From NCBI GenBank assembly GCA_037974965.1, contig JBBPFI010000014.1:434001-498000 (forward strand): a DNA stretch of 64,000 bases. The letters run 5' to 3'. The first letter of the stretch is position 1; each line of letters opens with the position of its first letter. This DNA is from Dacryopinax spathularia (taxonomy: Eukaryota; Basidiomycota; Dacrymycetes; Dacrymycetales; Dacrymycetaceae). The position numbers and the translations under genes are program-made. Positions 44,306-64,000 of this stretch are shown here, in pieces. The notes under the pieces were generated by a model. The model was not told the DNA's origin, did no database searches, and saw only the letters and a list, made by a program, of their open reading frames with translations.

Positions 44306-45529
44306 CCTGCTTGGTGGTCGTTTATTTGATTGATGAGTTTGGCTAGGCTAGTCGACGGAGGATGGTGGTGCTGAGCAGATAGACGGTGGTGGTGAGGTTG
44401 CAGATAGTAGATGATATATGACGCTGCGTTACTGGAGACAGTGACAGTGATGATGCCGACGACGCTCAGAGCCAGAGAACGGGAAAGAGGAGATGATGAG
44501 GCCAATCCCGCCCAGAGTGCGGGGAAGGGGGGAGGTTATATGCACTCCGCTAACCGCCCACTCAAACACGCGCAGAGCAAAGGCTTTTATTCATCGACGC
44601 CACACGGTGCCACAAATGCGGGGTAACATAGTCCCTCCTCTTCTCTCCCCCTCCAGCAGGCTTGGCACCAGTCCCCCCACCTTCTCACCCCTCAAACAAG
44701 CCTACCACTTTACTTACAAGACAGCTCCAACCCTCGTAAGTCGTGATGTGAGGAGGACTCACGAGATCCCTAACAAGCTTCTCAGGGTCTTTTCGATGGG
44801 GTTTCACCTTGCTCGAAGAGGCAAGGAGAGAAGGGCGAGAGGGGGGGATGAGGTAATGACACTGCCACCGTTGGGGACAACCTTGTGTATTAAGGGGCTA
44901 GGCGCGGGAGAAGATGTGGGAAGGAAGGGGAGCGGAGGGGAACGGGAGGGGGAGGGGTGGCTTGGCACGAGCGGGCGGGAGGCCATCCAGGGAACGTGAG
45001 GTTTTGTACGGGAGCTGATATGTACGGATCCGTACAGCTCCGTACTCCATCCGTATAGCCGATTCGTATAGCCGGTAGATAGCGCTAGGGACTTATTTAG
45101 CATAACACCCAATATTGATATTCTCGAGCCCATCCCCCGCTCCCCTCCAACACGCAAGTATCCTAGGCACATTCGACTTGTAATCTAACCCTCTCACTCC
45201 AATTCCAATCCTTTCCCTGCTCGCCAGCTGTCTTTTCAACTTGGTCGCAATGATCCACGAGGAACTGGTCGTCGTCCTCAGCGGGACGATCGATATCCAT
45301 ACACACAGTAAGTCATTCATCTCATTCGCAGGGGAAGAAGTCACTCACTGGGTATCAGTTCGTCTCGTCAACAATAGGAGAAGTAGATCTGCACAGCAAC
45401 GGAATTGTGAGTCGACTATGCAGCACATACGCAATAGGGGCTCGACTCACCGAAATTCCCAGATCATCTTGGTCCCTATTCCCGTGCCACACATTCGCAT
45501 CGCATCGCTCATCTCTCACCTCGACCACC
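44306..45529. other. divergent region containing the left end of the candidate large element
   Basis: Promoter region of the gene at 44305 (-), then the inverted-repeat end at 44987-45061. From 45250 a short open frame (MIHEELVVVLSG) ends at a GTAAGT donor at 45308 just after the first CGATATCCATACACAC repeat. It may be a 5' exon of the gene at 45530, but I could not join it with confidence. Confidence 0.4.
44987..45061 (+). repeat. left imperfect terminal inverted repeat of the candidate element
   Basis: Reads CCAGGGAACGTG, then GTACGGGAGC, the 14-nt palindrome GTACGGATCCGTAC, AGCTCCGTAC and CCGTATAGCCG. The reverse complement of 63494-63564 has the same blocks in the same order: CCAGGTTCCGTG, GTACGGAGCC, TGTACGGGTCCGTACAGCTC and CGCATAGCCGG. 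The non-palindromic outer CCAGG and inner TAGCCG blocks fix the inverted orientation. Confidence 0.7.
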
Positions 45530-46714
45530 ATGGATCACCTATACGCCATGGTATCGGAGAGCTGGCGCCACAAGAAGACTTTGACGAGCAAGAAAAACGA
45601 CGACGAAGCCCAGCAAGCAACCGCCAAGCCCACGAGCACCGGATTGGAGGGCAAGAAGAAGGACGACAAAGGTAAAGCGAAGGAGGTTGTCGCCATTCCT
45701 CTCGAACAGGTCGCCGAGGGCAGTCATACTGCCCCAGTACCCCCTACCGCCTTGCCTTCTTCGCATGGATCAACAAGCTCGACCGTGCGCGAGCTGTCCG
45801 ACTTCTACAAGCCCGCTGATTACGCCGAACGGCGCCTGAAGGGTTGGCTCGGCGATGGAGTCCTGTTCGCGACTCTCGGCGCGAACGAGCTGGGAGCGAT
45901 GGCCGGTGGGCCAATGATCAAGGCGGAGCCGGAGCCGGATGGTGCAGACGAGAGGGTGGAAAGGGGGCGGACGCAGGGGCGGGAAGGTGTGTTGAGAGAT
46001 GAGCACGCCGAACTGGCCGAGAGCACGGCCACGCCTCGTGAGCTGGAAGAAGGGCGCGAGGTACGTCCTTAACGATTGATATCCACATGTGTATGGATAT
46101 CGATCGGCTTGCCTGTTGATATCCATATGTGTATGGATATCGATCGGCTTGCCTGCCGATGATGATACTGACACTCGAGCAGGGCGGTCCCGATTCTGCT
46201 GGTCCCCGCAGGCGCCGCGTCTTCGACCTCACCAAACGCGAATACGAGCAGGCCGTTGTTGCTGAGCGTGAAGCAGGCGCTCGTCGTGGTGCGGCTGACG
46301 TCGACGCCGTGTACGACAACCTTTCGGCCATTGCTCGCGCTGGGTGGGACGATGCGGCAGACGTTTGGCTGAGGACGTCTCGCAACTGGCCGTACGTCGT
46401 TGGAGCCGTCAGAAGGATTCGCGAGCACGGCTGTGACCCTCGCCTCCTCTGCTACGACTTGGGCGGGCTCGTCTACTGGCTGGGCAAGGTGATCTATTGC
46501 CTCGTCGATACCTTCTTCAGGTCCCTCTGGGACTTCCGCCGCATCATCCTCGTTGCGATAGGTAAGTTCTTTTCTCTAGTCGAAGTACGCGCTGACATAT
46601 GATTTCTTAGCTTTCTACGTCGTTCTACTCAAGGTCTACCATGTGGATGCCGTAAAGCTGGCGATTGGGATCCTGAAGGCGGCGCCTGGGTGGATTGAGA
46701 AGAAGTTTGAGTAG
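45530..46714 (+). CDS. cargo gene 1: hypothetical protein with C-terminal membrane segments
   Basis: Exons 45530-46060, 46183-46561 and 46611-46714 give 337 residues in frame. The N-terminal half is charged and low complexity (KKKDDKGKAKE; acidic DERVERGRTQG). The middle includes RRRRVFDLTKREYEQAV and DVDAVYDNLSAIARAGW. The C-terminal ~75 residues are hydrophobic (GLVYWLGKVIYCLVDTFF, RRIILVAIAFYVVLLKVYHV), likely membrane-associated. Intron 1 is 122 nt, more than twice the local norm, because it holds two copies of the dispersed repeat, each as a GATATCC.../...GGATATC hairpin. Family not recognised. Confidence 0.7.
46078..46145. repeat. two hairpin copies of the dispersed repeat within intron 1 of cargo gene 1
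   Basis: Two tandem blocks of the form TGATATCCA-TGTGTATGGATATCG, each ending GATCGGCTTGCCTG. The arms are complementary and can form a short stem-loop. Confidence 0.85.
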
Positions 46715-47500
46715 GTTAGTCATCGTCAGGCCTAGTATTACCCGTCACTGTATATCCCAGAGTCCCGCACCTAAATAGAGTCTTGTGATCTTGACTTGAG
46801 ATAATGTCTGCGAGATACTGCTCGCCAATCCCTCGTTGATGTCCCCGTTAGAACGCTCGAGAAAGAGACAGCCCGCCGACCGATATCCATACACACATGG
46901 AGATCGACATCCATCCACACATGGAGATCGACATCCATGCACACAGATGGCGATCAATATCCAGGCACACACAGATAGCGATCGATATCTATACACACAG
47001 ATGGCGATCGATATCTATACACACAGATGGTCGATCGATATTCATACACAGATGGCAATGGAACCTTATACAGACATGGAGATCGATATCCATACACATT
47101 CGGACATCGATCTCACCTTTTCAAGCCTGACCACAGGCCGTCTACTCCCCTGTGGGACAAGATAATTGGGTTGGTCGTGTGGAAAACCTCCTGCCATTTC
47201 ATGAACTAAACGGCAGTGACAGTATGGCACACGTCTTCGTCCATCCGTTCTAGCCGGTCAGCAGCTTAACAGCCGACCGATCGAGATCCACTTACTGCGC
47301 CTTAAAGACACCCGGGCTAGCATTACTTCAAGCAGGCTCGAGGAGGATCCAGGCTCCCTCGCACGCACGATATGCGCTCCGTAGCAGTAGAACGGGTATT
47401 CCATTGCGTCTGTCCTCTAGGTACAGGCAGGCCGATCGATATCCATACACAAACATGGATATCAACAGGATGGGGACTCCTCCCCAGCTCGTCCTAAACC
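46715..47500. other. intergenic with repeat array
   Basis: Lies between two convergent cargo genes. It contains the tandem array at 46881-47113 and a hairpin copy of the repeat near 47430-47465. No gene seen. Confidence 0.6.
46881..47113 (+). repeat. tandem array of the dispersed repeat, about nine degenerate units
   Basis: Units of about 23-27 nt built on CGATATCCATACACACAG followed by ATGGCGAT or ATGGAGAT. Variation is mostly single-base (ATATCT, ACATCC, ATTCAT), indicating ageing of a once-regular array. Confidence 0.85.
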
Positions 47501-50500
47501 TCAAAAAGGCACAGCTTCGTTTTTGCGAAAGTATGCACTCTCAGAAAGAACCTTGCTCCCCTTAGCATTGATGAGACCCGTGTAGTTCGGTTCCTTGCGG
47601 GGCTCTGGAGGGGGAGGACCTGGGAAATCCAGTTGATCGTCGAACCAGTGCTTGCGAAGGAGGTTGTCGAGGACGTGCAAGGGAATTCCCCGATTGCGCG
47701 GCCCTTTAAGGTCGTAATATTTGTACGAGACTAGTTGGGTTAGTGCCTGGAACGTATGAAGTAGAAATGTACTTACTATTTCCATACACGCCGTTATGCC
47801 ACATGCAGACCGCTTTCTTATCTCTACATCTGATGCAGCACTGTCGTTCCCAGCGTCTGCAAATTCTGTTTACGCCTACGCGAGCGTCTTTATGGATTTG
47901 ACAGGTATGGCAAGCTTTCTCTCCGTAAGCGAGCTATACGAATGCGAAGTCAGACACTTTCCGAGCCTGCGCATATAGGGGCTTACGAAGATTTTCGCTG
48001 GAAGGCTTGGATCATCTATGATGACTTCCCCGTGACTTTTGACAGTGTCGAAACTAGGAAAGTTCGATAGTGTATATACCGGCATTTGGAAGAAGGCGCA
48101 GCGTAAAACATGGCGGGGGAATGGGTCGATCCTGTTCTTAGAGCGCCTCATTCGCTTCAAGTTGCCGTCCGTGGTTTGCCAGCCGTCCGGTTGCTCTTCC
48201 AGCTGAGCCGCGAGCTGCTTACGCCGGGCTTTGGTATGCATGAGAAAACGGCGATCGAATTCTTCGAAGCTCATCGGATTTCTGTCTTGTCCTACGAGGT
48301 GTGCACGCTTGAGGAGACCACCAGGCTTCTGACGCCATCGACCGTCCACGAAGATCTGCAGTCGCTCAAGCGCCCACCTGGGAATGTGCTCATATTGGAG
48401 GCCCAGGCTGTACCGTTCCTCTGACACGAGCCAATCGAAGACATTTTGGAGTATAGAGATGATGACTTCTGCTTGATTCTTGGTGAAAGGGATGCCTTCC
48501 TGATGGTGTACAGCGAGAGTGTCACCCTAGAACAGTACGTTAGAGAGCGAAGGGCATCCTTTACGCGAACACATACAACAGCCATGCGGACGTTGGCAAA
48601 CCACTTGTCGACCCGATCTTGATTGTCGTGGAGAGGCGGCTTGGGTTTGTTCGTGTCGACAGGGCGTAGCATACCCTCGATGTACAGCAAGGAGTATCGA
48701 TCCCAGCTGTACAGCCTATCCGCCTTCGAATTCCGTATCCCGCGTTGTAGAGCATCCCAGAGGAAGTGCTCGCTGACCGCCGCCCTCCGGGGCAAAGGAT
48801 CATCGAATCCCTCCCTTATGTGGAAGGCTAAAAGATGACAGGCTTCATCTTTCGCCAATGCATACGCTTCTTCCAGAATGGAAACCCCGTCAGGTTGGGG
48901 AATACGAGGATCGTCCCACATGTCGAAAAAGCATTGCTGCGATACAGTTCAGCGCAAGTGTTGCTTTTCGCTCAATTTACACTCACAAGGAATTCGCCTC
49001 GCCTGTTTAAAAGCCATTGTACCCCAGATCGGGTGATCTCCCCATACTCTCCAAACCACGGAAGGGGCGCAGTCCGATTGCGAGCGATCTCGTCGATGAC
49101 TTGTTGAGGAGTTTTCAGGGAGAGAATAAGATTTTCCGGGTCGGCCTGCCAGTGCGGGAGAATTCGAGCCATTTCCTGCCGAAGCAGCTCTTCCGATCGA
49201 CTGTCAATGTAAGGGAGGTCGAAATCCGCCGGTCTGATTTGCGGATCGTTCCCATCACGAGGGAGCGCCTCGGCAAGTTGGATAAGTTTCTCCAACGCAT
49301 GCTGCAGGTAGCGGTGGGCCAATCTGTCGCTTGCAAGCTCAAAGCCCTCCATCTTGCTCTAGAAGAACATCAGAGCGATCCATGAGCGAAAACTATGGAT
49401 TACTTACCATGAAGTCAGCGACCTTGACAATCCAAGAACGGATGGCCTCGTCCGAATCTCCTTCATCGGGCACTTCTAATATGAGGATATGTACTTCGTT
49501 GAGTCGGGAGTAGAGAAGCTCTTCATGCTCTTCCTCGGCAGAGTTCCGTGCCTTGTATATGCCCTTCGCCCAGAGTTGCAAGGGCGTATCTTCCAGCGAG
49601 GTGTCCCAAGAGGGCTCCTCATCAGAAGATGGAGCTTGGGATTCGTCAGGCGCAGCTTCTCCTTCCGGGCGGTCTCCTTCATGCGCAGGAAGTTGGATAG
49701 TTCCGGCCTGGCGGGCTTTTTCTGTCTGGCGAGCTTTTTTGGCCTGGAGGGCTTCTTGAGCCCGGCGAGCCGCTTCAGCTCTTTGTTCCTCTTCAAGCCG
49801 TAGTGCCTCAGCCAGTCGTGCTTCCTCAGCTTTCCGTGCCGCATACGCTTTTCGAGCCGCCTCAGCCTTTCGAATGCGTTCTGCTCTCTCTGCCTCTTCA
49901 ACCAAACGTGCTTGGCGTTGACGCTCAGCCTCGGCAGCTTGGCGTTGACGCTCAGCCTCGGCAGCCTGGCGTTGACGCTCAGCCTCGGCAGCTTGGCGAG
50001 CGGCTTCCGCTTGACGCGCTGCCTCAGCCTGGCGAGCTGCCTCAGCCTGGCGAGCTGCCTCAGCCTGGCGAGCTGCCTCAGCCTGGCGAGCAGCGGCCTG
50101 ACGAGCAGCGGCCTGGCGAGCTGCCTCTGCCTGCCGCTCGGCTTGTGCTTGACGAGCGGCTTGTTCAGCCTTCTCGATTTCTTGCCGTTTTCTCCACGCG
50201 TGTTGAGCTCTACGATGTCTCTCCAGCTTCTCCTCCTCGGTCAACTGCGCAAACGGTCGAGAGTCTACTCCTTCTCCCCTGCTCCCTTGTGTACTTGCCT
50301 GCACTGGTCGCATTGGGACAGATCCCCTTTGATGATTCTGGTCGGCTGGTCTGGGGTACCACGATTGTTGGTTCGCGTACAGAGGATGGTTTGGCGTCTG
50401 GCGAGGCTGTCGAGCGAGCCACTGGTCGTAGCGGGATAGATGCGGCGTGTATCCTCCACCGTTACTGCTTCCAGGGGCATATGGGAAGGACTGCTGCTGA

Positions 50501-50673
50501 GGCAGGTGAGAAGAATGGCGCGAAATGCTCCTATATGCACTGTCGTTTCCCGGGGGAAGCACGTTAAAGGGTGTAGGCGGCCGTGTGCTCGGTTGATCTA
50601 CTTGCTGATACTGCTGGTTGCCGTACCAGTAGTTAGAATGGGAGATGCATTGTCGTTTGTTAGGATTGGTCAT
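47501..50673 (-). CDS. cargo gene 2: 964-residue protein with Ala/Glu/Gln/Arg coiled coil and C-terminal Cys cluster
   Basis: Exons 49408-50673, 48987-49358, 48577-48936, 47940-48526, 47777-47856 and 47501-47730 form one frame. After a Gln/Tyr/Pro-rich N-terminus comes a long repetitive helix (about residues 165-340, many RQAEAA/AERQRQAA units), then an acidic link. The remaining ~550 residues look globular (FDMWDDPRIPQPDGVS, LLAFHIREGFDDPLPRRAAV, NVFDWLVSEERYSLGLQYEH). Near the C-terminus RWERQCCIRCRDKKAVCMWH holds four cysteines and a histidine, a possible small zinc motif. A 5' UTR intron with acceptor at about 50703 places the upstream ATG at 50709 at the splice site, so the start at 50673 is chosen. 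A truncated inverted relative lies at 54098-55070. No known family. Confidence 0.75.
49910..50160. repeat. tandem repeats coding for the RQAEAA/AERQRQ helix
   Basis: Two block types: 27-nt units (three copies near 49915-49990) and 24-nt units (about six near 49990-50110), both in frame within cargo gene 2. Confidence 0.85.
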
Positions 50674-51422
50674 GATGTTTCTGGATGATCTGAGAGGAGG
50701 ATACTGCATACACACTCAATACCGATACGGAGACAGTGGTGGACGATAGAGGGTACGCACCTGTGAGAGCTGGAGAGTGGACCTTCTCTTAGTCCACCTT
50801 GCGTTCCTTGTCAGCCCCGGCTAGAGCTCTCTCTGTATCTTCGAAAGTGGAAGATGACGGGTTAACAGCTGCGGAGAAAGAACGGATGGATGGTATGAGC
50901 TTGAGGTGAGTTGCCGATGTTGGCTGCTTTCGGGAGGATATGTGACTGATAAGGGTAGTATAGCTGGAAAAGACCAGCGGACAGTTTAGGTGTAATGTTG
51001 GGTATTTATTGAGGGATATGGATGATGTATGGTATGCTACTGTCTATGGTGGTCGTGTCTTTCTTAATAAAGCGCTCTCACTCCTGATCCTGATCCTAAC
51101 CCTGACATTGGCTTGATCTACAACGCCACTGCGCCCCCTGTGACAACGCCACCCTGCTTAGTAGTCACATGCACCTCTGACACCTTCACCAGCACAGCAC
51201 TGCGGAGCCAAATAGCCCCCTGTCACTCAAACTCACTCCACCTCCTCATCATCCTATGTCCATCTTCCCTTACAAACACATCCAGTATCTCATTAGGCTC
51301 ACTGAAGAATAGCGCAGCTAGTGAGTGGCAGGATCAGCAGAAGTGCACCGGCTTACACCTTGTGCAGGTACGAAACAAGTTTTGCGCCTCTACAGTCTTA
51401 TCTATCAAGAGGCGACTGCACC
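50674..51422. other. divergent promoter region of cargo genes 2 and 3
   Basis: Includes the 5' UTR intron of cargo gene 2. The segment 50715-50845 recurs in inverted orientation at 53930-54035. Otherwise non-coding. Confidence 0.6.
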
Positions 51423-52883
51423 ATGGGCGCCACGTACCACCGCTCCTTCTCCTTGACGAATTCCTCTCCTGAAGAGAGGGAGAGGCTCATTGACAGCGAT
51501 CGTCGCGCTATCCATGACGACTATTTTGGTCAAGGGACTGGAAGTGCGTTACCCCACCTCGCTCCTCGCACAGCGGAGGGCGGGCCGATCGATATCCATA
51601 CACACACACTTGCCAATCCTGCTGGGGCTGGTGAGGGCGCCGTCTCTGCGCCATCCAGCCTCGCTCCTGCTGGAGAAGGCAAGTCGATCGATATCCATAC
51701 ACACACACTTGCTAATCCTGCTGGAGCAGGCAAGTCGATCGATATCCATACACATACACTTGCCAATCCTGCTGGGGTTGGTGAGGGCGCCGTCTCTGCA
51801 CCATCCAGCCTCACTCCTGCTGGAGCAGGCAAGTCGATCGATATCCATACACACACACTTGCCAATCCTGCCGGGGTTGGTGAGGGCGCCGTCTCTGCGC
51901 CATCCAGCCTCACTCCTGCTGGAGCAGGCAAGTCGATCGATATCCATACACACACACTTGCCAATCCTGCTGGGGTTGGTGAGGGCGCCGTCTCTGCGCC
52001 ATCCAGCCTCGCTCCTGCTGGAGCAGGCAAGTCGATCGATATCCATAGACACATTGGCGACCCCTTAGGGGCTGGCAAGTGTGTCAGCGTCGCGTCGCCC
52101 AGCATCGGTTCTCCTGCAGGAAACGGGTGGCTGGTCGGCATCTATACTCCCGTTGGTAACCCTGCCGTGGGAGCTGACGGCACTCTCAGCTCCCTCTCCC
52201 AATCTTCGCCCAGCTCTGCAAGGGCTGGGCGAATCGTCAATGGGCTCACCTCTCGGGAACGTCGTTACTCCGCCAATCCTAAACTCGCATACACTCAGCG
52301 TCGCCTTGACGAATATGCCGATTATCTGCGTGCATTTCACTGCGACTCCCTAGCGCTGCAGGTTGCCGTGCAGGGCCGTCTTGCAGAGATCGCAGCCTTG
52401 CGCCATGCAGTTGACGAACAGGACGCGGAGGAGCGGGGCATCAATCCAGTGGGCAAGACCGAAGCTGTCCAAAGCGGCAATGAGGAAGCGAATGCGGACA
52501 TGGCGAGCCTTGACGAGGCTCGCGATGTGGACGCTTATCCTCCCCCATACATGCGGAGCGACCCTTACCGTGAGCAGACTATTCGCAGTCTGCTTTACCC
52601 TATTGGCCTCACCGATCTGTTCGCCGGCGATCCAGCATGTACTACTCCTCCGACAAAGGGCGCTCCCGCCTGCGGACCCAACACATCCGAGCTGCGTCCT
52701 TGGACGTACAACGATGAAGTATACCGGAGCAGTGAGGCCCTCAACGCGTACCAGAAGGCTCGTGCGGAGGATCGCAGGCTCTATCGTGAAGAACGCGGTC
52801 TGACCTCTTGGTACGCTCGCTTCTGCGACTTCTGGCCTAAATTCCTCAATCCCTGCTCGTCATCCACGGGCATCCCGGTGTAG
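51423..52883 (+). CDS. cargo gene 3: hypothetical protein whose N-terminal half is built from the dispersed repeat
   Basis: Single open frame of 486 residues from the ATG at 51423 (MGATYHRSFSLTNSS). Residues about 56-210 contain six in-frame copies of IDIHTH (DNA starts near 51591, 51690, 51741, 51840, 51939 and 52038). Five of the six fit a 99-nt (33-residue) periodicity, SIDIHTHTLANPAGVGEG then AVSAPSSLTPAGAGK; one unit is shortened to 51 nt. The C-terminal half is non-repetitive and soluble-looking (RRLDEYADYLRAFHCDSLAL, YREQTIRSLLYPIGLTDLF, SWYARFCDFWPKFLNPCSSS). No recognised domain. The long frame despite repeats argues that it is translated, but its codons are dictated by the DNA repeat. 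Confidence 0.65.
   Translation: MGATYHRSFSLTNSSPEERERLIDSDRRAIHDDYFGQGTGSALPHLAPRTAEGGPIDIHTHTLANPAGAGEGAVSAPSSLAPAGEGKSIDIHTHTLANPAGAGKSIDIHTHTLANPAGVGEGAVSAPSSLTPAGAGKSIDIHTHTLANPAGVGEGAVSAPSSLTPAGAGKSIDIHTHTLANPAGVGEGAVSAPSSLAPAGAGKSIDIHRHIGDPLGAGKCVSVASPSIGSPAGNGWLVGIYTPVGNPAVGADGTLSSLSQSSPSSARAGRIVNGLTSRERRYSANPKLAYTQRRLDEYADYLRAFHCDSLALQVAVQGRLAEIAALRHAVDEQDAEERGINPVGKTEAVQSGNEEANADMASLDEARDVDAYPPPYMRSDPYREQTIRSLLYPIGLTDLFAGDPACTTPPTKGAPACGPNTSELRPWTYNDEVYRSSEALNAYQKARAEDRRLYREERGLTSWYARFCDFWPKFLNPCSSSTGIPV
51585..52052 (+). repeat. in-frame array of the dispersed repeat within cargo gene 3
   Basis: Six copies of GATCGATATCCATACACAC, spaced 99, 51, 99, 99 and 99 nt. Each copy is preceded by GAGCAGGCAAGT or a close variant. 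Confidence 0.9.
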
Positions 52884-54097
52884 TTAGTCTTAGCTAAGCT
52901 TGCCCAATTTGTATTCACCCCTGTCCTTGACTGTGCTTCTATAGTATGGTGATTTAGATCCATACTGGCTTTGTATCTCAGTCGTTTACGACTGTCCAAT
53001 CGTTATAATGCAGCCATTGTCCGTGTACCGGTATACTGTTGGTTGCATCTGCAGAATCTTCTAAAGTAGGAAAAATTGTTTCTTCTTACAAGTGCGCTCT
53101 CGGCGTTGATGCACGAAACGACGGCAACATGATAGCATTACATTAACCAGCGAGTGCATACATCGACTGAGCTTCTGTCCACGCACGAACAGTGTCGAGA
53201 AGGCCAGAATACCTCATCGACCCAACTGTCATCCACCTTTCGATCTGGGCGCCATGCAGTTACAGTGCCGTTCGAACTGGGCGATATCGGAAACGATCGC
53301 CGTCAGAAACGGGCGCCGTCAGCAACGGGCGCCGTCAGAAACGAGCGCCCTCACAGACGAGAGCCAGTAGAAGTGGGAGGCATAAGAAGTGAGTGCCAGG
53401 AAAGTTGAGCGACACAAGAAACGGTAACCCAGATATCTTGGAGCCGCAGGAAGTAGTAGCCTTGACACATGGATACTGTTATACTCCAAGTGCGACTGTA
53501 CTTCATCACCTTATCAACGAAACTCAATCACAAACATGATGGTTATGCAGGAGTATCATCTAATTAGTTATTCATTATCAGGGGAGAGACGCGATGCCAT
53601 CTATCACGTGCTGATTGCGCGCTGCAGTGTTTATGCATAGGGTGGCGCAGAACACGTTCCTCTCTGTCTTATCTTCTCCTCATCGTCCAGCGAAACCCAC
53701 CACGGCCGACGCTAAACACCTGTTACTTTTACTCCAGCAATCCCAGCTGCATCATCCACAATAGGAGGGGACGACTTGCATCTATCCCCGGTCCTCCATT
53801 CACAAATCCCTCAACTCGCCAAGCCTCCAAGAGCCGACTGACATCGGCAACCGCCCTCAGAAACCTATACCATCCGACCCTCCTCTCTTCGCAGCTGTCA
53901 ACCTATCAGCTTCCACTCTTCAAAGATACAGAGAGAGCTCTAGCTGGGGCTGACAAGGAACGCAAGGTGGACAAGAGAAGGTCCGCTTTCCAGCTCTCAC
54001 AGGTGCGTACCCTCTATCGTCCACCACTGTCTCCGTATTGGTACTGAGCGAGCAACCATTCCTTCGCCACCTTATTAGATATTTCACCTATTATACG
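52884..54097. other. intergenic with 18-nt repeat array
   Basis: Contains a GAAACGGGCGCCGTCAG-type array (53270-53400) and, from 53930, a copy of the cargo gene 2 leader in opposite orientation. No gene otherwise. Confidence 0.6.
53270..53400 (-). repeat. 17-18-nt tandem repeats, minus orientation
   Basis: About four good and three decayed units of GAAACGGGCGCCGTCAG. The complement matches the array at 57825-58020. Confidence 0.8.
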
Positions 54098-54817
54098 ATG
54101 TTAGAAGGCGACGAGGTTATCGCAGATGACGACTGTGGTTACCTGTCTGCATCCTCAGCTGAAGACTTAACCATGCATCCTGCTGGCGAGCACCTTTTAC
54201 GACGTTCGCGTCGTTCGACCAGAACAAGTCCTGTACCTCAATCCCGCCCTTCGCCATTTCACCGAGCAAAACAGTCAAGCTCGCTGAAAGTTGCTGGTTG
54301 GCGTCCCCCAGAATACCTACTGAAACGGGCTCCCCGAAAACGGCCGTATCAATCGATCACATCAAGAGGCAGCCCTCCACAAGCAGGGGAAGGCTTTGGT
54401 GATGTCGAATTGCCTTTAACAACCAGATGTCCGGACGAGTCCTCCGTATCTTGCCTGATCCCAGCAGAGGGAGCACGGTTGGACGGAACGGGAGAGGCGG
54501 CGAAGTATGTACGAGCAGAGGAGACCCATCATGATGATGAAAAGTCACCGACTGAGGAACTTTTACTGGAAGAAGACGCTTGTGTAACTGAAGAAGCGCG
54601 CCAGGCTGAAGAAGCGCGTCAGGCTGAAGCAGCGCGCCAGGCTGAAGAAGCCCGCCGGGCCGAAAAAGCCCGTCAGGTTGAGTTTGCGCCTGCATTGAAG
54701 ATGCATCGCAAACTGAGGAGGGTACGCTCGCTCAACAGGGCGAAGGGTGCGTACGACCCGCCGGTACGCCAGGTATATCTGGGTTTGCGCAAGCCAGATA
54801 TATTGAGAAGACCATGA
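54098..54817 (+). CDS. truncated divergent relative of cargo gene 2
   Basis: Open frame of 239 residues from an ATG at 54098 (MLEGDEVIADDDCG). The 5' leader and its GTGCGTACCC intron donor just upstream are nearly the same as those of cargo gene 2, but in opposite orientation, so the two genes form an inverted pair around cargo gene 3. The frame contains a shortened repetitive helix (EEARQAEAARQAEEARRAEK, about residues 188-207) and stops soon after. Downstream non-coding DNA at 54830-55070 matches internal exon/intron sequence of cargo gene 2 (48530-48720), showing that the rest of the gene is broken and rearranged. Expression is uncertain. Confidence 0.5.
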   Translation: MLEGDEVIADDDCGYLSASSAEDLTMHPAGEHLLRRSRRSTRTSPVPQSRPSPFHRAKQSSSLKVAGWRPPEYLLKRAPRKRPYQSITSRGSPPQAGEGFGDVELPLTTRCPDESSVSCLIPAEGARLDGTGEAAKYVRAEETHHDDEKSPTEELLLEEDACVTEEARQAEEARQAEAARQAEEARRAEKARQVEFAPALKMHRKLRRVRSLNRAKGAYDPPVRQVYLGLRKPDILRRP

Positions 54818-55250
54818 TCAAGATCCACTCTCGCGTGGAGGATGCCCGTCTCCTTCTCTGTACATGCTATATATGCTATATATGCTACACCCTCTCGACA
54901 CGAACCAACCCAAGCCGCCTCTCCACGATAATCAAGACCGGTCGACAAGTGGTTTGGCAATGTCCGCATGGCTCTGTATGTCTTCATGGGAAGTATACTT
55001 GTCGCTCTCTAACGTACTGCTCTAGCGCCTCACTTGCGCTGTACACTATACTAAAGGCGCGGACATGAGCACATTCCCAGGTGGACGATTGAACGAAAAG
55101 CCAGTTGTTAGGAGCAAATGACCTCAAGCAGGCACTGATAGCTTTGTCTCCGCAAGTCATTTCGGGTGCGCTTTTATGCCAGTGTCATTATCTGACATCG
55201 TTAACACTATCCTGCTACAGACCTGCCACGTCCATCACCATCTGTGGGCA
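54818..55250 (+). pseudogene. mosaic of cargo gene fragments
   Basis: 54830-55070 matches, in opposite orientation, the cargo gene 2 segment 48530-48720, including an intron boundary (TCGCTCTCTAACGTACTG). 55099-55133 matches 58849-58883 of cargo gene 4 (AAGCCAGTTGTTAGGAGC), and 55188-55206 matches its first intron (TATCTGACATCGTTAACA). Two repeat copies follow at about 55250 and 55370. No open frame links these parts. Confidence 0.7.
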
Positions 55251-55839
55251 AGCCTATCGATATCCATACACATCATGTATGCGCGCAATCTCGCCTTTAA
55301 GTCCTCGGCACATACTTGGCTCGCATCGCCTTGCCCAGATCGCCTCCCTCAAGGCAGGCTGATCGATCAATATCCATACACACATGGATATCACAGGGTA
55401 CGTATGGTCATGGCACACTTCCAACTCGCGGTGGAGTCCTGTTCTCCGTCAGTTATGTGTGCACACCCTATCCCGGCCAACTGCCTTTGTCGTCGTTCTC
55501 CTTTCCTCGCAATTTGGACGGTGCTTGCATAATCATCCACCACTGGGCGTTGAAACGCAAGCGCGCGTCTTTGTCTCCGCCTGGTCTCATTATGCTTGCT
55601 ACACTTGGTGCATCGCCGTCATCTGTAGCTGTTATTGCTTCTGTCGATCTGTACTGGTCCCTATACCTGTTATCCGCTTCATCGCCGCCGATCCTTTCGT
55701 GCCATGCGCCTGGCTCTATTGGTCTTTGCATCTTCCGCGTTAGCTGCTCCTCTCCTTCCGCGTACGCATACGAGCTGCACTGGACGGTATTCCCTTTGTA
55801 CTCGATAAATGTCCTGTCCACATCATTCCTTCTTCTACA

Positions 55840-56335
55840 TCCCTCTTCTTTCTCCCTCTGTCTCTCCTTCGTCTCCCTCTTCCACCCTCTCACCTTCTTC
55901 TGTCTCTCCTTCATCTACATCTCGCTCTCCTTCATCTCGCTCTCCTTCTACATCTCGCTCACCTTCTTCATCTCGCTCACCTTCTTCATCACTCTTACCT
56001 TCTTCTCTCTCACCTTCTTCTGTCTCTCCTTAATCTCTCTCTCCTTCATCTCTCTCTTCTCCTACATCTCGCTCTCCTTCTTCATCACTCTTACCTTCTT
56101 CTCTCTCACCTTCTTCTGTCTCTCCTTCATCTCTCCCCTTCATCTCTCTCTTCTTCATCTCTCTCTCCTTCTACATCTCGCTCGCCTTCTTCATCTCGCT
56201 CTCCTTGTTCTCTCTCTCCTTCATCCATCCCTCCTTCATCCATCTCTCCTTCTCGCTGTCCTTCATCCATTTCGCCTTCTTCTCTGTCCACCTTCTCTAT
56301 CTCCTATCTCCTCCCTCTCTCGCTGTTCTTCTGCA
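55840..56335 (+). repeat. degenerate CTCTCTCCTTCATCT tandem tract
   Basis: Units of 12-15 nt such as CTCGCTCTCCTTCATCT repeated over about 0.5 kb. Similar GA-rich units occur in the transposase gene region at 62515-62575 and near 63365-63405 in the other orientation. Confidence 0.8.
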
Positions 56336-56624
56336 TTTCGCTCGGCATGTAGGAAAATGTCGCTTCGCCAGATTCTATCAGGCTTCGGCATACCGCTGGC
56401 AAATGATCTGTTCATGAAGCGAGAGCGGCAACACGCAAAAGTCTAAAAATGTGAGCCCTCGCTAGTTTGCCATAAGCTGTCACTTGACACTTTGAGCCAG
56501 AGTTCCTGATGATCGACGCCAAACAGGAAGAGTCTATTCCATTGCAAGCTGGTGTAACTGCAGGCGAACCAGTGAAGCGTGACCCATGAAGAAGACCCTA
56601 TCGATCGCCGCGTCAAGAGCGGGT

Positions 56625-56800
56625 CCATCGATATCCATACACACAATCAGAGCACGCCGATTGGTATCCATCCACACAGTCTGCCGGTCGATATCCATAC
56701 ACAGTCAGAGCACGCCGATTGGTATCCATCCACACAGTCAGTCTGTCGGTCGATATCCATACACACAGTCTGAGCAGGCCGATCGTTATCCATACACACG
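56625..56800 (+). repeat. array of the dispersed repeat, six units
   Basis: Alternating CGATATCCATACACAC and GATTGGTATCCATCCACAC units separated by AGTCAGAGCACGC or AGTCTGAGCAGGC. Confidence 0.85.
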
Positions 56801-57824
56801 GTCTGTCCACTCCTCTCACGCTTGCTTGAACGGCACGTCTAACGTACAGCACAGCAAGATCCATAACTACTGGATGTCAACCTGAAGCGACAGGCGTCTT
56901 CAATGCCACGACAATCGTTGAAGGCAGTAACCCAGAGGGCATACTGATCATATCCATAGGACACAACCGCCCGTGTTGCGGCTCTTGCTTCAGCGCTGCC
57001 TACATCATCTCAACTTTTTCATCGCGATTGCGGGTCTTGAAGCGGAGCCGGGATGGACACCATCGCCAGAAGATCCTGCCTGTCGATATCCATACACGTA
57101 CCGCCTCGTGTGGAGCAGACTCCCGATATTAATGCCCAGTACGTCTCGTCCTGGTCTGTATTGGTCCAGAACCACTCGCGCTGATTCCATTCTGCAACAG
57201 CGTCCGTCAGCGAGATCACAGATAGAGTATGTGAGCACAATCCACTCTCAGAAATAGAGCAGGTCGGTCGATATCCATACACATATAGTACGTGTCCTTC
57301 CTGGCCTTCCCTGAGCTGACTATAACACAAAGCACAGCGCAAGCACACCATAATGGACATGTAACATGTGACGTGCAGAGGACTCTGAGAGATGCAAGGC
57401 AAGCAGGTCGATCGATATCCATACTCATGGTGCGCTCCTCTCGCGGCCAAGTTGCGAGCAGTTGAACAAGTCTAACAGTGGTGAATCTTTGACTTCGCAG
57501 CTTGCGCGTCCGGATGCTCGTATGGGCAAGCGTGAAAGCCCGACCGGATTGAAGCAGGGCCTCTCCGAGTACACTTACCAAGGCACATCTGGGGACGAGC
57601 CACGGTAAAACTGCGATTCGCGATATCCCTTTGAAGATGCTCGTTATGATGGATGAGGGCCACTATACACAGACTCCGCCGACTTATTTCTAGTGATTGC
57701 GTTGCGGCTGCGATCCTTAATGACATGCACAGAAGCCCTCTTGTAAACGTCCATGAAGTCCGCTACGGGAAAACGAAGAGAAAGACATGCGATGCTACCG
57801 AAGGCGTTCAGCGGCGCTGAGATA

Positions 57825-58020
57825 TAACGGCGCTCATTGTGGACGGCACCCGTTTTGTATGGCATCTGTTTTGTATGGCGCTCGTTCCATAAGGTGCTCA
57901 CTTCATGCGGCGCTCGTTTCGGATGGCGCTCGTTCCGGGTGACGCTCGTTTCGAATGGCGCTCCTTTCTGAAGGCGCTTGTTTCTGAAGGCGCTTGTTTC
58001 TGAGGGCGCTCATTTCGAGT
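57825..58020 (+). repeat. 18-nt tandem repeats, plus orientation
   Basis: About ten units of GGCGCTCGTTTCGAATG with base changes. The last three (GGCGCTTGTTTCTGAA) are the most alike. Confidence 0.85.
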
Positions 58021-58227
58021 AGGTGGCTATAATGAAATAAGACGTGTTTCCTCGAGCTCTACATCGAGTGTTGCCTCAGCTTTTGAACGTCTGTGCGTTT
58101 TAACAAGGAAGCTAAAAACCCTTGATGGTGATGGCTTGTTTGTCCGTTTTTACTGCGCGGTTGGGCTGACGTTCTTGCTCCCTGTTTATTTACCCTCTCG
58201 ACTTGAAATCGTCTGCCAAGCTACATC

Positions 58228-60266
58228 ATGTCCGCTTCCACACAGGAGGTGAAACCTGAGGTCCACAATAAAGATTACCCCAGAGATGTGAATATCCTGA
58301 TGGACCTTTGGGGAATGACCGAAATCGCCCCACGTACTTGCGAGGCAGAGGCGTGTGGCGCCTTGTGTATACCGTTTGTTGCATATAATCGGAGGGGCAA
58401 ACACCCCAAGAATAGATTCAGACTATTTGTTCGGGTGAGCAGCGAATTATGGTTGTGCTTATGTCGATATCTGACATCGTTAACAGTGTGCCGAGATCGA
58501 GCACTTTGACGACAGCTTCTCTTGGATATCCAACCCAGTCCCTCCAGAGTACATCGCTCATGTGCAGGGAGCGCTGGCCGGCCACCCCACCTACGATTAC
58601 CCATCAAGTCCACCGCGACCCAGCCCGAAGAAGCCCTTGCACTCGAACTCCTATACACCCAGGCCGTCCCAGCTTCCGCGGAAAGTCAAAAACAATTGCA
58701 AGAACGGCTGCACTAAGCCGCTGAACACCGACTGCCCGAAGCTTTTCTGCCGCACGTGTTGCTTGATTGCTCAGGAGAATGCCGACCTTGCAGGACGCTT
58801 CGAATGTCCGAAACACAAGTTTTCCCGCCTAGCCTTGGACGAGACCAAGCCAGTTGTTAGGAGCGAGCGACCGCAAGCAGGTTCTTCTGCTGAAGTCGAA
58901 GTTATAGATGTTGATGCGCAGGATGCCTACCCACCAACGTTGACTCAGCAGCATCGCACACCCTACTGGCGAATGGAATCGCCGACCCCGACGAGATTAC
59001 CCCGCTCCTTTCAAGGGCCAGCCACCCCACGGCAGACTCGTCCATTAGGACGTGTGGTACCCGAGTCGTATGATCGACAAAGGAAGGAAGGATGTGATGA
59101 GAAAGCCCGTCTTGAGCTGCAGGATAAAGAGGCAAGAGAGAGAGAGGAGGAGAGAGGGAGACAGTTCATGGTGATCATCTTAACTGAGGTGCGTCTCGCT
59201 GTCTTTTTTCGGGTCACGAAGAGCTAACAGACCATGGCAGGATGATGCTGTGTCTTTCCCCGGAGTACTCGCCAAAGCGGGCTTGAGCGGCCTAACCACG
59301 CGTCTCAAGGAATGGGATGTCCATATTCAAGAGTGGATTCAAGGCAGGCTGGGCATGCCTTATACATCGCTCGAACTCTTCAATCCTGTTTCGAACCGAT
59401 GGGAAATCTACGGCCTCGACGCATTGCGCAATGTCAAAAGAGATGAGAGATTGCTTTGTCGCCTCCCTGGGGTGCAAGGTGATCTCCCGCATGTCCTGGA
59501 GGAGATCTCGCACCTCACATATCTCACGCCCACGCGAGATGCACCTCGGCGGTCTGGTGGATCACCAAAGAAGGGGGATCTTCGGCCTAAGCTCATCCCT
59601 CAACCTAGCTCTGCTCGACCCAATTCGATCCGAAGAGGGACGACCTTGCATAGAGCGATATCGAAGGAGGGCGAGATGATGAGAGAGAGCATGATGTCGA
59701 AGGAGAGCGAGATGACGAAGGAGAAAGATATCGTCGTTATATCATCCGATGAAGATGAGACGCCGAATCGAAAGCGCCCCCGATCCAGCGGTACGATTGA
59801 CTCCCTACCATCTGTGGACGAGATCATAGATAAGGCGAACATCCCCTCGACACGGGGCTCTGTAGCAGTGCCGAATGATCGCTCAGCAAGTTCACCAACT
59901 GAAGATCCAACGGTCACACGTGGGGCGTGGCCTGGCAACGCATCCTTCGGCGTCGTAAGCGATCAGATAAACGAGGTTACGCATAAGATGAAGAAGGAGC
60001 GGAAGCCGTTAGAGATTGCTCTGGTTAAAGTGGTTGGGCACCGAGTTCCCCGCCAGACTTGGTACGATCAGGTCCACCTTCTTCAAGAAGCTAGCATGAG
60101 CCTTGTCGAGAGTTTCAAGAAGACTCCTGCCGAAAGTTGGTCATCATTCCGGGTCAAAGTTGCCGAGGAGAAAGATGCATGCGAGCCGGGCGAAATGAAA
60201 CAGAGAAACAAGAAAGACAGCCCGAAATCGAGCGAATTGCGCCGCCCCAAGAAGATCAGAAAGTGA
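58228..60266 (+). CDS. cargo gene 4: Cys-rich hypothetical protein
   Basis: Exons 58228-58434, 58487-59188 and 59241-60266 give 644 residues. After an N-terminal domain (NILMDLWGMTEIAPRTC, AEIEHFDDSFSWISNPVPPE) comes a basic linker and a cysteine cluster at about residues 137-180: NCKNGC, DCPKLFCRTCC and FECPKHK. This C-x3-C-x7-C-x4-C-x2-CC...C-x2-H spacing looks like a small zinc-binding module of the kind seen in many basidiomycete proteins of unknown role. A charged helix ends exon 2. Exon 3 encodes LFNPVSNRWEIYGLDALRN, a Ser-rich linker with IVVISSDEDE (an SUMO-interacting-like motif) and a basic C-terminus (RRPKKIRK), suggesting a nuclear protein. Function unknown. Confidence 0.72.
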
Positions 60267-61057
60267 TGTTGATAGGCCCGCTGGGGAGATTGCTGCCTTA
60301 TGCTAGATCGTCTTTATTACCTATTTGATTTCCTTTGGTTTATATTGCTCAAATGCTCACGCTCGCTAACATTCTTCACCTCTACCACCGAGTCGATCGG
60401 CGTCACTCCAACGTTCGTTTTCCATTTGATCTTCCCACTTCATCGCGTACCATATATACCTAACCACAACTAACATCTATTTACTTTAATAACCATTGAT
60501 TCCCCTGTACATTGCGCCAGCATTGAGACGAATTGGAAGGCAGTTATAGGGGTGTCTAGACCTTGGTCAGCGCACCGCTCTGTCTCAGGCATATCGGAGA
60601 CGATTACAGTGTGTATGGATATCGGTCAGCCTGCTAGGTGTGTGTATATGGATATAGATCTGCCTGCTCAGTGTGTGTGTATGCATATCGATTGACCTGC
60701 TCAGTGGGTGTGTATGGGATATCGGTCAGCCTGCCCAGGGTGCGTGTATGGGGATATCGATCTGCTTGCTCAGTGTGTGTGTCTGGATTTCGAGCTGCCT
60801 GCTCAGTGTGTGTCTATGGATATCGGTCCGCCTGCTCAGTGTGTGTGTTTGGATATCGATTGACCTGCTCAGTGTGCGTGTATGGATATCGGTCAGCCTG
60901 CTCAGGGTGTGTGTATGGATATCGATCGAGCTGCTTAGCTGATGCGGTCTACGTGGCATTCAGCCAATGATGTACAGGTTGCAGTAGCAATCGTTTGTAC
61001 TGGTCGTGGCCACTACAAAAGCATCATTTACAGGTCCTAAAGAAGTACAACAAATAG
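60267..61057. other. intergenic with the largest repeat array
   Basis: Lies between convergent cargo gene 4 and the transposase. It contains the 33-nt array described separately and no gene. Confidence 0.6.
60605..60940 (-). repeat. array of about ten 33-nt units of the dispersed repeat, minus orientation
   Basis: On the plus strand units read GTGTGTATGGATATCG followed by GTCAGCCTGCTCA. Because the unit is 33 nt the array stays open in one frame (CVYGYRSACSV per unit), but this is a by-product of the period. Confidence 0.9.
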
Positions 61058-63327
61058 CTAGATCAAAGCTTCGGATGGAATGAGATGTGGGGAATGTCCG
61101 CGCTTGGCCAGCTCGCTAACAAGAAACCGATTATGTACCTTGATGACCTCATCCAAAAAGAACTCATAACGAACCGGCGTCATCTCTCGTACAATGGGAT
61201 GGAAATTATTCAACCACGCATTGATTTGCTCGCATTTGGAGGAGTTGAACGTCCATATTTGGTTCTCCTCGTCGACCAACTCGGGATAGGCAGCTGCGTT
61301 ACAATGCAGCCCGCAGTACCAGTCCTTTTCGGAGTGTTTCGATTTGAAATGGAAGATGTCAACGACAAGGGCGGTGTCCTTGAAGTACTCCTTCAGGCGA
61401 GGACGTTCATGAATGTACTTGTGCAATTGACAATTATTGTCATAAAAGAGCACGTCAGGGAGGGATGTAGGTGACGGAAAGACGGTGCACAGGAAATCCT
61501 GCGCAAGGGTAAGTCAAGGGGTTACAGAGAGAGAGGTACGCACGAACAGCTACAGATGCCAAAGACTCAGCCCCGTAGAATGTGCCTCGAGCCAGGATAA
61601 TGCCGCACGGCCGTACCACGAGTTGCTCGTTGTGCGTCCTTCGGCGAGTAAACCGCGCACGAAGTTTTCTGTGCGGCTGAGAAGTTGATTGGGTAGGCGG
61701 CCGGCTACCTTGCGAAGGATCTCCTGCTGCTGTCTCTCCTGCTTCTATCTCTCCTGCTTCTATCTCTCCCGCTTCTATCTCTCCGTCTGCGTGCCCCTCG
61801 CCAACTACGTCGTCATCAACAGGCAGGGTTGCTCCTCGGAAGTAGGCATGGGTCCTATTAAGGCGTTTTCTGAGCAAATGGAAGGACTCCTTCTGCGAGC
61901 GGAACTTGGACTCGAGAGCTGCATGGCTGCGATTTGGACATGTCTGATGCCCGTCTCGTGCCCGCGCCGAGCAACCTTCAACAGCGCAATTCAGATCCAG
62001 GTGCGAGTGCATTAGACAAAAACGGGCTCGATTTGTGACCAGAGGATTCGCACAGTTGTGTTGGGCACAGCATGGTCTTCCGATCGCCACACCATCGCTA
62101 ATGGCGCAAGAGAGCATATCTGGTGCTGAAGTTGAGTGATAGCACAGGCAATAAAAGACTGGCCTACACTCGCGCCCGTTGCGTTGAAAAAACTTCCTGC
62201 AGATGTCGCAAGCATGCGGCCACTGCTCCTGCCCTTTCACGGTGATGAAGGTGTTACGCTCGAGCATTGCACCCGTTAGTCGCTGCGTTTGGGTGAGTCC
62301 AGGGTGGTCGGGAAGACGAAGGCGAGTGCCTTGCTCGTTATGGTGTAACAGTAGAGCGTAGAGATCGAATAGGTCGGCGATATACTCTCCGCGCAGGAGT
62401 GGGGTTTTATAGGTGCCTTTTTCAACGTGCCGAGGTGTGGCGAGCGTAGTATTGTATACGAGTGCATTCGCGCTCATAGAGGAACTGTGTAGAGGGTAAG
62501 CGCGCAGAAGGAGAGATGGATGAAGGAGAGAGAGAAGAAGGAGAGAGAGAAGAAGGAGAGAGAGACGAAGAAGGGATGTACGTACTGGGAAAACACAGTC
62601 ATGGACCGGAAGAGCTCGCAAAGCTTGTCTTCAAACAGAAAGTGCTTTTCTCCTTGGATGACTTGCGGTATACCACCATGGTAAACACGTTGTATGTCGC
62701 CGAGCGCATCAGGTTGACAGGCATAGTTGATGTGGTAGGTACTGTGACAAGAGGGGCATCGTAGGGAGGTTACAATCACCGGAAGCGCCCCTCGGGAAAG
62801 GGTATAAAGAGTGGCCCTGTATCTTCGTGGGTCGTATAGACGAGCGCGATGTTGGCGGTTGACGAAATCGGGACAGTATGAGTATGTGCAGACACGAGTT
62901 GGCGGATAGAACTCTTCAGCAGCTGACGGGACAGTGAGCAGGACGCCCAACCTCTGAAGTCATAAGGCTAACCAAGATCGAAAGACTGCGCATGCTCCGC
63001 GAAGATGCGATAATGGTCAACAAGTGGCGGGCTCACGGCAGCGAAGTCCCTGTCACCCGCCCACGCCGTATCGCGGAAAATATCCCATAGGGCGACCACC
63101 TGCGCACGGCTCACTTTGAGACCAACAGAAAGGAGTCCGATCACAGATGCCGGTAGCTCAGTTGGAGGATCTTCAAAGCCCGCTACACCAGTATCTTGTT
63201 GCCAGCAGATTCGATTCTGAAGATTGCGAGCAGCAAAGACGAACTCGATCGCTTGCTCAAGAGTGAGGTCGCCAACAGCGGATCGAAGTCGTTTGAGACG
63301 TTTATAAAGTGCAGTCAGTTGCAGCAT
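61058..63327 (-). CDS. KDZ-superfamily transposase with CxC5/CxC6-type cysteine clusters
   Basis: Exons 62968-63327, 62586-62953, 61548-62484 and 61058-61498. Order: an N-terminal helical part (LYKRLKRLRSAVGDL, VVALWDIFRD); a CxC5-like part (FYPPTRVCTYSYCPDF, LRCPSCHSTYHINYAC); a CxC6-like part (AISDGVAIGRPCCAQHNCAN, FCLMHSHLDLNCAVEGCSAR and later TCPNRSHAALE); a Glu/Ala/Gly linker; and the catalytic end VLFYDNNCQLHKYI, VVDIFHFKSKH, NSSKCEQINAWLNNF. Asp in YDNN, Asp in VDIFH and Glu in CEQ are likely the catalytic acids. Exons 2-4 are in frame. Between exons 1 and 2 the frame changes over about 20 nt with no canonical intron, so the 5' part is either slightly damaged or spliced in a way I cannot see. 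Confidence 0.8.
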
Positions 63328-63493
63328 TGATCCAGGCAGACGGAGGCGTGATGTAGAAGGAGGGAGACGCGTAGTCGATGTGAGCGATGTAGAAGGAGAG
63401 AGTAAGCGCTGGTGACTGTAATGTTCCTGATGAAAGTTTATGATTGTGCACCATAGGGACACTTATCCGCTTAGACAGTTCTCAGAGGCAGTG

Positions 63494-63564
63494 CCGGCTA
63501 TGCGAGTGTACGGAGCTGTACGGACCCGTACATTTGGCTCCGTACCAAAGCGCACGGAACCTGG
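63494..63564 (-). repeat. right imperfect terminal inverted repeat of the candidate element
   Basis: Reverse-complement partner of 44987-45061. It lies about 170 nt upstream of the transposase start, as expected for a transposase that binds its own end. Confidence 0.7.
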
Positions 63565-64000
63565 ATTTACTGGCGGGCGGGGGATCTCGGAGGGGGAGGA
63601 GGTCTCGGGTCGGTGGTGTTTGTGCCAAACTTCTCTCTCTCTCCCCGGCCGTCATCCATCGAGTAACCGTCCCTTGAGCTGTACATCTTCTGGGAGCTGA
63701 TCGACGACACATCTTGCTCTGGGCCTCTGGGCCTCTGGTCTTGTTGTGGATCATCTTGACCTTGGAGTATAAGAACCTGGCGCCTCGAGGGACGAACTCC
63801 CCGGCAGGACCGATCACTGCCCCAAACCAGCCGAATTCCGACCGCATCTGGTTCACGGTATGTCTCCCAGAAACTGGAGAAGCTCAGCCCAACCAGACGG
63901 GATGATCGGCAGCCTACCGAAGTCTGGGGTTGTGCGATCGCCTGCGTCGCCTCAAACCTTCTAGTTGAGGGCGTGTGCTGGAACCGAAGTGGAACGCCTC
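63565..64000. other. flank beyond the candidate element
   Basis: No gene is supported before the window ends; short open frames lack family resemblance. None of the element's repeats occurs here. Confidence 0.5.

Follow-up and report, generated by a model that had tools for sequence, protein, structure and literature searches.

Among the described systems nearest to the element examined here are two sets of fungal inserts. The KDZ (Kyakuja-Dileera-Zisupton) DNA transposons KDZ1, KDZ2 and KDZ3 of Cryptococcus neoformans are approximately 9-11 kb in length, have terminal inverted repeats (TIRs) of 139-241 bp and a CxC1 cluster, and make target site duplications (TSDs) of 8 bp (KDZ1) or 4-8 bp (KDZ2 and KDZ3) (PMC12810828), a size of 9-11 kb for the Cryptococcus elements being given also in PMC12510652. 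In Pleurotus ostreatus, a 6.8-kb insert in the gene MSH4 carries a multicopy CxC5/CxC6 reading frame of 660-739 amino acids; the authors tie such inserts to Copia retrotransposons, with no KDZ transposon beside them, and neither 'inverted repeat' nor 'target site duplication' occurs as a term in the main text of that report (PMC7641404). Here, a stretch of 64,000 nucleotides from Dacryopinax spathularia (contig JBBPFI010000014.1, positions 434,001 to 498,000; the whole stretch is referred to as the window) was analysed, in which a reading of the letters alone had proposed a giant KDZ transposon carrying cargo genes. The interval concerned is very probably a complete giant DNA transposon, intact by all appearances, whose mode of movement would be cut-and-paste with a staggered cut of 8 bp. 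It has paired inverted ends and an exact TSD, is present in four close copies in the genome, and has nine further kin of the same anatomy, while the window copy holds a full-length spliced frame for a transposase with CxC5, CxC6 and a KDZ-like core.

Like KDZ1-3, the window element combines TIRs and short TSDs with a transposase bearing a CxC cluster; the KDZ core of KDZ1-3 has its counterpart here in a KDZ-like core that scores below the Pfam cut-off. Unlike them, the window family measures 17-19 kb, has imperfect ends of approximately 80 nt, carries CxC5 and CxC6 together with the sub-cut-off core, and has three further fixed core genes. It likewise shares with the MSH4 insert a multicopy CxC5/CxC6 frame, but in the window this frame belongs to a TIR element flanked by 8-bp TSDs. 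Fungal KDZ elements that carry a TET/JBP gene provide a precedent for a KDZ-type transposon with a further gene thought to serve the element, and the same source records 8-bp TSDs for Zisupton and the Dileera example and, for two families of Kyakuja, a 7-bp TSD with CA..TG ends and no TIR (PMC12730594); the 8-bp TSD and TIRs of the window element set it apart from the Kyakuja lineage. Unlike the TET/JBP-carrying elements, the window element has no Pfam match to a TET/JBP dioxygenase. Four weak matches to this family, all below the cut-off, lie elsewhere in the genome (G000:C8:998044, C8:499943, C8:761543 and C13:1016521), with none in the 13 elements described below. CxC5/CxC6 is mentioned once in PMC12568894, and KDZ TIR motifs are mentioned for Marasmius in PMC8290104. 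Starships are very large fungal transposons with extra genes and a tyrosine recombinase (PMC12134995, PMC13066641); the window element resembles them in large size and extra genes but differs in transposase and TSD, and a Pfam scan of 18 reading frames, with E values up to 1 considered, gave no match to a tyrosine recombinase captain. No 17-19 kb CxC5/CxC6 element with these genes was found among the matches listed in the open-access literature.

The window element extends from position 44979 to 63572 (18,594 bp), its left terminus beginning with GAGGCCATCCAGG and its right terminus closing with CCTGGATTTACTG. Directly outside these termini stand two identical copies of the 8-bp sequence GCGGGCGG, at 44971-44978 and 63573-63580, which constitute an exact TSD. 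The left TIR (44979-45064, forward strand) contains GTACGG/CCGTAC boxes, and the right TIR (63487-63572, reverse strand) reads inward as CAGTAAATCCAGGTTCCGTGCG. The two ends are imperfect inverted repeats that align over approximately 77 columns. The local alignment score is 41, whereas 2,000 random 85-nt pairs drawn from the window scored no higher than 23 and 2,000 shuffles no higher than 17. The original prediction, which had placed the inverted ends at 44987-45061 and 63494-63564 and had suggested looking for a duplication of about 8 nt beside them, was thus sound on both counts, its ends lying inside the slightly longer termini given here. The longest reading frames across the joined insertion sites were 190-240 codons and none appeared gene-like by eye as a host gene, no domain search having been made.

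The genome searched comprises 29.2 Mb in 24 contigs, in which the window corresponds to G000:C14:434001-498000 and the window element is referred to as copy A. The left 75 nt are present at four genomic places with 100% identity, and the right end likewise at four, namely the window's own and three at 91%, each situated 18.3-18.8 kb from a left end. The pairing of ends about 18 kb apart elsewhere in the genome, proposed previously as a check, is therefore observed three further times, each pair with its own exact 8-bp TSD: copy B on C15 (18,304 bp, CTCTCCAC), copy C on C14 (18,584 bp, CAAGGGGC) and copy D on C6 (18,773 bp, CATGCCCG). The 40-nt flanks beyond the TSD are different at all four sites. 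Copies B, C and D are mutually 96-99% identical for the most part, with one repeat-rich piece at 91%, whereas copy A shares 64-81% identity with them in the larger aligned pieces; the near-identity of B-D, together with the more diverged A, suggests recent and repeated movement. On the left side the first 106 nt are identical in A-D, as would be expected if one transposase recognises both A and B-D, and further inward most 150-nt bins are 74-91% identical, with one bin at 62-63%. The outer 75 nt of the right end are 91% alike between A and B-D. Copies B-D carry a block of approximately 13 kb (element positions ~2.3-15.3 kb) in the opposite orientation to that in A, and the inversion appears to be derived in B-D, because the nine further elements all keep the places and strands of the genes in A.

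The genes between the ends are numbered G1 to G5. Homologs of these and of the transposase were counted across the genome, the counts being lower bounds, with an E value of 0.001 for CxC6, G2 and G5. CxC6 is encoded at 28 or more places, of which 13 were sampled for TSDs: the four close copies and nine loci picked because homologs of G1, G2 and G5 all adjoin. Exact 8-bp TSDs were found at all nine (element lengths 17,102-18,935 bp), and so in 13 of 13 elements with both ends resolved. In seven of the nine the TSD was located by a scripted search of the far end, and in element C2 the 8-mer occurs also once elsewhere by chance; the ends of C5 and C17b were placed where identity stops and then checked. 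The TSDs of the 13 elements show no strong consensus. The transposase-side end begins CAGTA in 11 elements and GACGACGTACAGG in two, and the opposite end begins GAG[GA] in all 13. Recurrence of both ends with an exact TSD in every resolved element bears out the earlier suggestion that the 18.6-kb interval moved in its entirety, as a single unit. All 13 also contain the same four-gene core, in the order G1 (forward), G2 (reverse), G5 (forward) and transposase (reverse) in ten and with the G2-G5 block flipped in three, and spliced alignment recovers near full-length transposase frames in each, with no less than residues 4-685 of 689 covered. Approximately 1 kb beyond copy C there is another CxC6 element (G000:C14:121117-132971; loci L014 and L036), with two tandem G2 homologs and one G5 homolog; its ends and TSD were not found.

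The transposase gene, G6, occupies 61058-63327 on the reverse strand and thus reads inward from the right end of the element. Its five exons (63327-62973, 62922-62586, 62484-62168, 62119-61548 and 61498-61058) encode a protein of 673 amino acids with CxC5, CxC6 and a KDZ-like core; the version scanned in Pfam and used as the query for spliced alignment had 689 residues, 16 of them from a presumed intron. The scores for CxC5 (102.5 bits; cut-off 26.9) and CxC6 (79.3 bits; cut-off 27.5), cysteine clusters that Pfam associates with KDZ, are far above threshold, and CxC6 is followed in the same gene by a core block well conserved in the family, DNNC...D.FH...KH...CN...FNSS..E...W. The frame is open in all four close copies, and the ratio of nonsynonymous to synonymous substitution rates (dN/dS) is 0.12 over 657 codons, a value derived, like the others given below, from the single pair A and C with a simple counting script. 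A frameshift shared by the B-D transposases was considered and rejected, since an intron of approximately 50 nt is present at that position in 11 of the 13 models (all but A and C2); the copy A gene also fits a 48-nt intron at this site, in frame.

The models of the intervening genes were derived by comparison of A with C, the GT-AG sites of the introns of G1, G2, G5 and G6 being conserved between both. G1 (45530-46714, forward; exons 45530-46060, 46183-46561 and 46611-46714, with splice sites conserved in copy C) encodes 337 amino acids with the motif AGGP.IKAE and a hydrophobic C-terminus. G2 (47501-50709, reverse; six exons, 50709-49408, 49358-48987, 48936-48577, 48526-47987, 47933-47777 and 47730-47501) encodes approximately 974-986 amino acids, depending on the start codon, with coiled-coil repeats followed by a conserved region with a C-terminal cysteine cluster, in which WERQCC and NGVYGN (with D instead of G in C) are conserved. 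G5 (58228-60266, forward; exons 58228-58434, 58487-59188 and 59241-60266) encodes 644 amino acids with two cysteine clusters and a conserved block ending RLLCRLPGV. Between A and other elements, identity in the G2 protein is 56% with C17b, 39% with C3 and 40% with C4a, and identity in the G5 protein is 40% with C3 and 39% with C4a. The dN/dS values between A and C, which represent the two closest subfamilies, are 0.23 for G1, 0.19 for G2 and 0.21 for G5, and on this comparison of coding sequences the core genes G1, G2, G5 and G6 are under purifying selection (dN/dS 0.12-0.23). The corresponding values for the remaining two genes are 0.44 for G3, a variable gene (51423-52883, forward) whose 486-residue product contains SIDIHTHT repeats encoded by the interspersed motif described below, and 0.49 for G4, a 239-residue reading frame (54098-54817, forward) in a region where part of G2, from its 5' region and its coiled coil, is repeated in inverted orientation. 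Inverted repeats I1, I2, I9 and I19 link the G4 region to G2, with arms at 50715-50790 and 53973-54048 (95% identity) and at 48613-48673 and 54881-54941 (92%), and G4 may be a G2-derived gene. Set against 48494-50845, the window segment 53919-54941 as a whole contains inverted partial copies of G2 that correspond to its 5' region, to the coiled coil and to one of the later exons.

Several observations weigh against the interpretation of the interval as a complete, intact element of KDZ kind. At the right end, A and B-D have only the last 5 nt exactly in common, and their identity over the outer 300 nt (two bins) is 65-67%. The transposase models of C2, C12 and C4b depend on unusually placed introns, behind which damage could be hidden, and in copy D a stop codon is present in the coiled-coil repeats of G2 (L015-L018), so that the core genes need not all be whole in every copy. 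None of the G1-G5 proteins, the spliced accessory proteins included, matches a Pfam family at its cut-off, which agrees with the earlier description of these genes as unrecognised; sub-threshold matches of the intervening genes, at E values up to 1, were to DUF7063 (0.19) and, on low-complexity coiled coil, to Plasmodium_HRP (0.13), and the best match of any accessory protein, of the C3 homolog of G5 to DUF702, was non-significant (E 0.087). Searches of PDB sequences with small alignments gave one match for G2, at E 0.87, and none for G5, and structure prediction for a G5 block was poor (predicted local distance difference test score, pLDDT, 45). The model of the C-terminal part of the transposase, whose core would be expected to have an RNase H-like DDE fold in a KDZ enzyme, was poor also (pLDDT 49), and a fold search with it gave no match at E 0.001. 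Finally, the KDZ core (PF18758) scores 20-24 bits in G6, below the cut-off of 26.6, over profile positions 119-217 only, and was matched (E of 0.01 or less) in five of ten other sequences, in each case below the cut-off, with no match in the other five. The original prediction of a KDZ-type transposase at the right end therefore stands as to orientation and the CxC5/CxC6 clusters but is left short of a KDZ core that passes the Pfam threshold, and the designation 'KDZ' rests on CxC5/CxC6, TSD length, TIRs and the weak core match.

This shortfall leaves room for an enzyme that is an unrelated, non-KDZ DDE transposase, for example of hAT-like kind, to which CxC5 and CxC6 are mere DNA-binding additions. 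Target duplications of 8 bp are usual for hAT-like elements too. The sub-cut-off PF18758 score, which covers only the C-terminal half of the profile, is compatible with such an enzyme, as is the description, in the Pleurotus report, of CxC5/CxC6 frames without a nearby KDZ transposon and tied to Copia (PMC7641404). However, the window protein and the five others show their weak KDZ match over one and the same part of the profile (positions ~119-217), no hAT or other transposase family was matched in Pfam among the proteins of the window element that were scanned, and the conserved block follows CxC6 within one gene. An unrelated enzyme is thus considered unlikely, and the element is judged to be a DNA transposon that belongs, broadly speaking, with the KDZ kind and has a multigene core that is conserved.

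Less likely still, and indeed improbable, is an origin of the intervening genes in the host, from which they would have been captured to travel as passengers in the manner of the large cargo-carrying transposons of other fungi. The gene that best fits this description is G3, a 208-residue piece of which matches only six of the 13 elements and, besides these, three loci that have a G1 homolog within approximately 2 kb and no listed CxC6 match; G1 itself has homologs at six places besides the 13 elements, in which its weakest match is that of C4b (E 1.6e-4). Against this, G1, G2 and G5 are present in 13 of 13 elements, with order and orientation kept apart from the B-D inversion. Apart from the one adjacent element at C14:121-133k, only the 13 elements gave homologs of G2, and homologs of G5 were found at 25 or more places, 25 of 25 lying within 19 kb of a CxC6 place; no homolog of either was found away from CxC6 loci in this genome at E 0.001. 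Since they are universal among the 13, since G2 and G5 occur only near CxC6 genes, and since purifying selection between A and C is evident on the core, G1, G2 and G5 are best read as core element genes rather than captured host cargo. The 'four cargo genes' of the original prediction accordingly give way to five modelled genes besides the transposase, three of them fixed. That the interval arose instead by segmental duplication, or is made up of smaller elements nested in one another, as the many internal repeats, the inversion between A and B-D and the neighbouring CxC6 element beyond copy C might be taken to imply, can be dismissed as scarcely credible, given that the flanks beyond the TSD differ at the four sites, each with an exact 8-bp TSD of its own, and that one gene set and one kind of end pair recur in 13 elements.

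Two groups of G1 homologs merit separate description. Adjacent, divergent homologs of G1 and G3 are located at G000:C8:1413715-1415918, C11:854532-857086 and C12:104244-106363, with no CxC6 or PF18758 match listed nearby, and these three loci may represent a third element lineage. More distant G1 homologs lie approximately 12 kb from ordinary PF18758 KDZ genes (G000:C13:882247-894882, C1:2214781-2227414 and C1:696645-709145), and G1 may therefore be an accessory gene of long standing among KDZ elements.

The element is also marked by an interspersed motif centred on CGATATCCATACAC, with 34 sites between 45291 and 60924 when up to two mismatches are allowed (24 forward, 10 reverse), including sites in an intron of G1 and in the coding repeats of G3. 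At the same stringency the motif is absent from the 55 kb of flank searched beside the window element. The form CGATATCCATACA has 54 exact sites in the genome: copy A has 20, B and C have 10 each, D has 11, and the remaining three lie elsewhere; the reversed pattern, used as a control, has none. With two mismatches allowed, this form occurs once in the flank of B and not in the flanks of A, C or D. The repeat family had been described as private and confined to the interval, and while 51 of the 54 exact sites do fall within copies A-D, 31 of these are in B-D and three sites lie outside all four, so that the confinement is to the close copies, in large part, and not to the interval. The letters flanking the motif differ between A and C, and all 13 sites of ATCGATATCCATACAC are in the window copy. 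In a separate comparison, a pyrimidine-rich array at 55850-56300 was found to be 79-90% complementary to a purine-rich array at 62488-62574, within a transposase intron. Distant CxC6 loci (L024, L026, L029 and L030) have repeat families of their own that are unlike the window motif, an example being CTGTCCAACAC, which is present 16 times in L030.

A mechanism can be proposed in which the transposase would bind the GTACGG/CCGTAC boxes of the asymmetric ends through its cysteine clusters, while the KDZ-type DDE core would cut and join, the element moving by cut-and-paste. G1, G2 and G5 would serve the element itself, because G2 and G5 were found with nothing else in the genome and all three are kept by selection; most likely they encode DNA-binding or chromatin accessory proteins, with putative roles in synapsis of an element of 17-19 kb, in regulation or in escape from silencing. 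The interspersed motif could feasibly be a binding site for these accessory proteins, although this is the weakest step of the scheme, the alternative being a repeat that spreads inside the element. A broader proposal, advanced only tentatively and with somewhat less than even confidence, is that CxC5/CxC6 transposases form a distinct superfamily of giant multigene fungal transposons whose mobility obligately involves four proteins (transposase, G1, G2 and G5) and whose accessory modules are exchanged between transposon lineages. The exchange of modules is suggested by the G1 homologs located ~12 kb from other KDZ genes and by the G1-G3 pair at three loci without a listed CxC6 match.

These data show that CxC5/CxC6 proteins are encoded at the end of a genuine transposon that has TIRs and makes 8-bp duplications, as opposed to the link with Copia made in the Pleurotus report (PMC7641404). 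That 13 giant elements of a single genome all retain three unrecognised proteins besides the transposase suggests that a transposase alone does not suffice for large KDZ-like elements, and 'cargo' thereby becomes a testable claim. The size limit of cut-and-paste transposition, the part played by accessory mobility proteins, and the biology of giant transposons outside the Starships are likewise opened to direct test.

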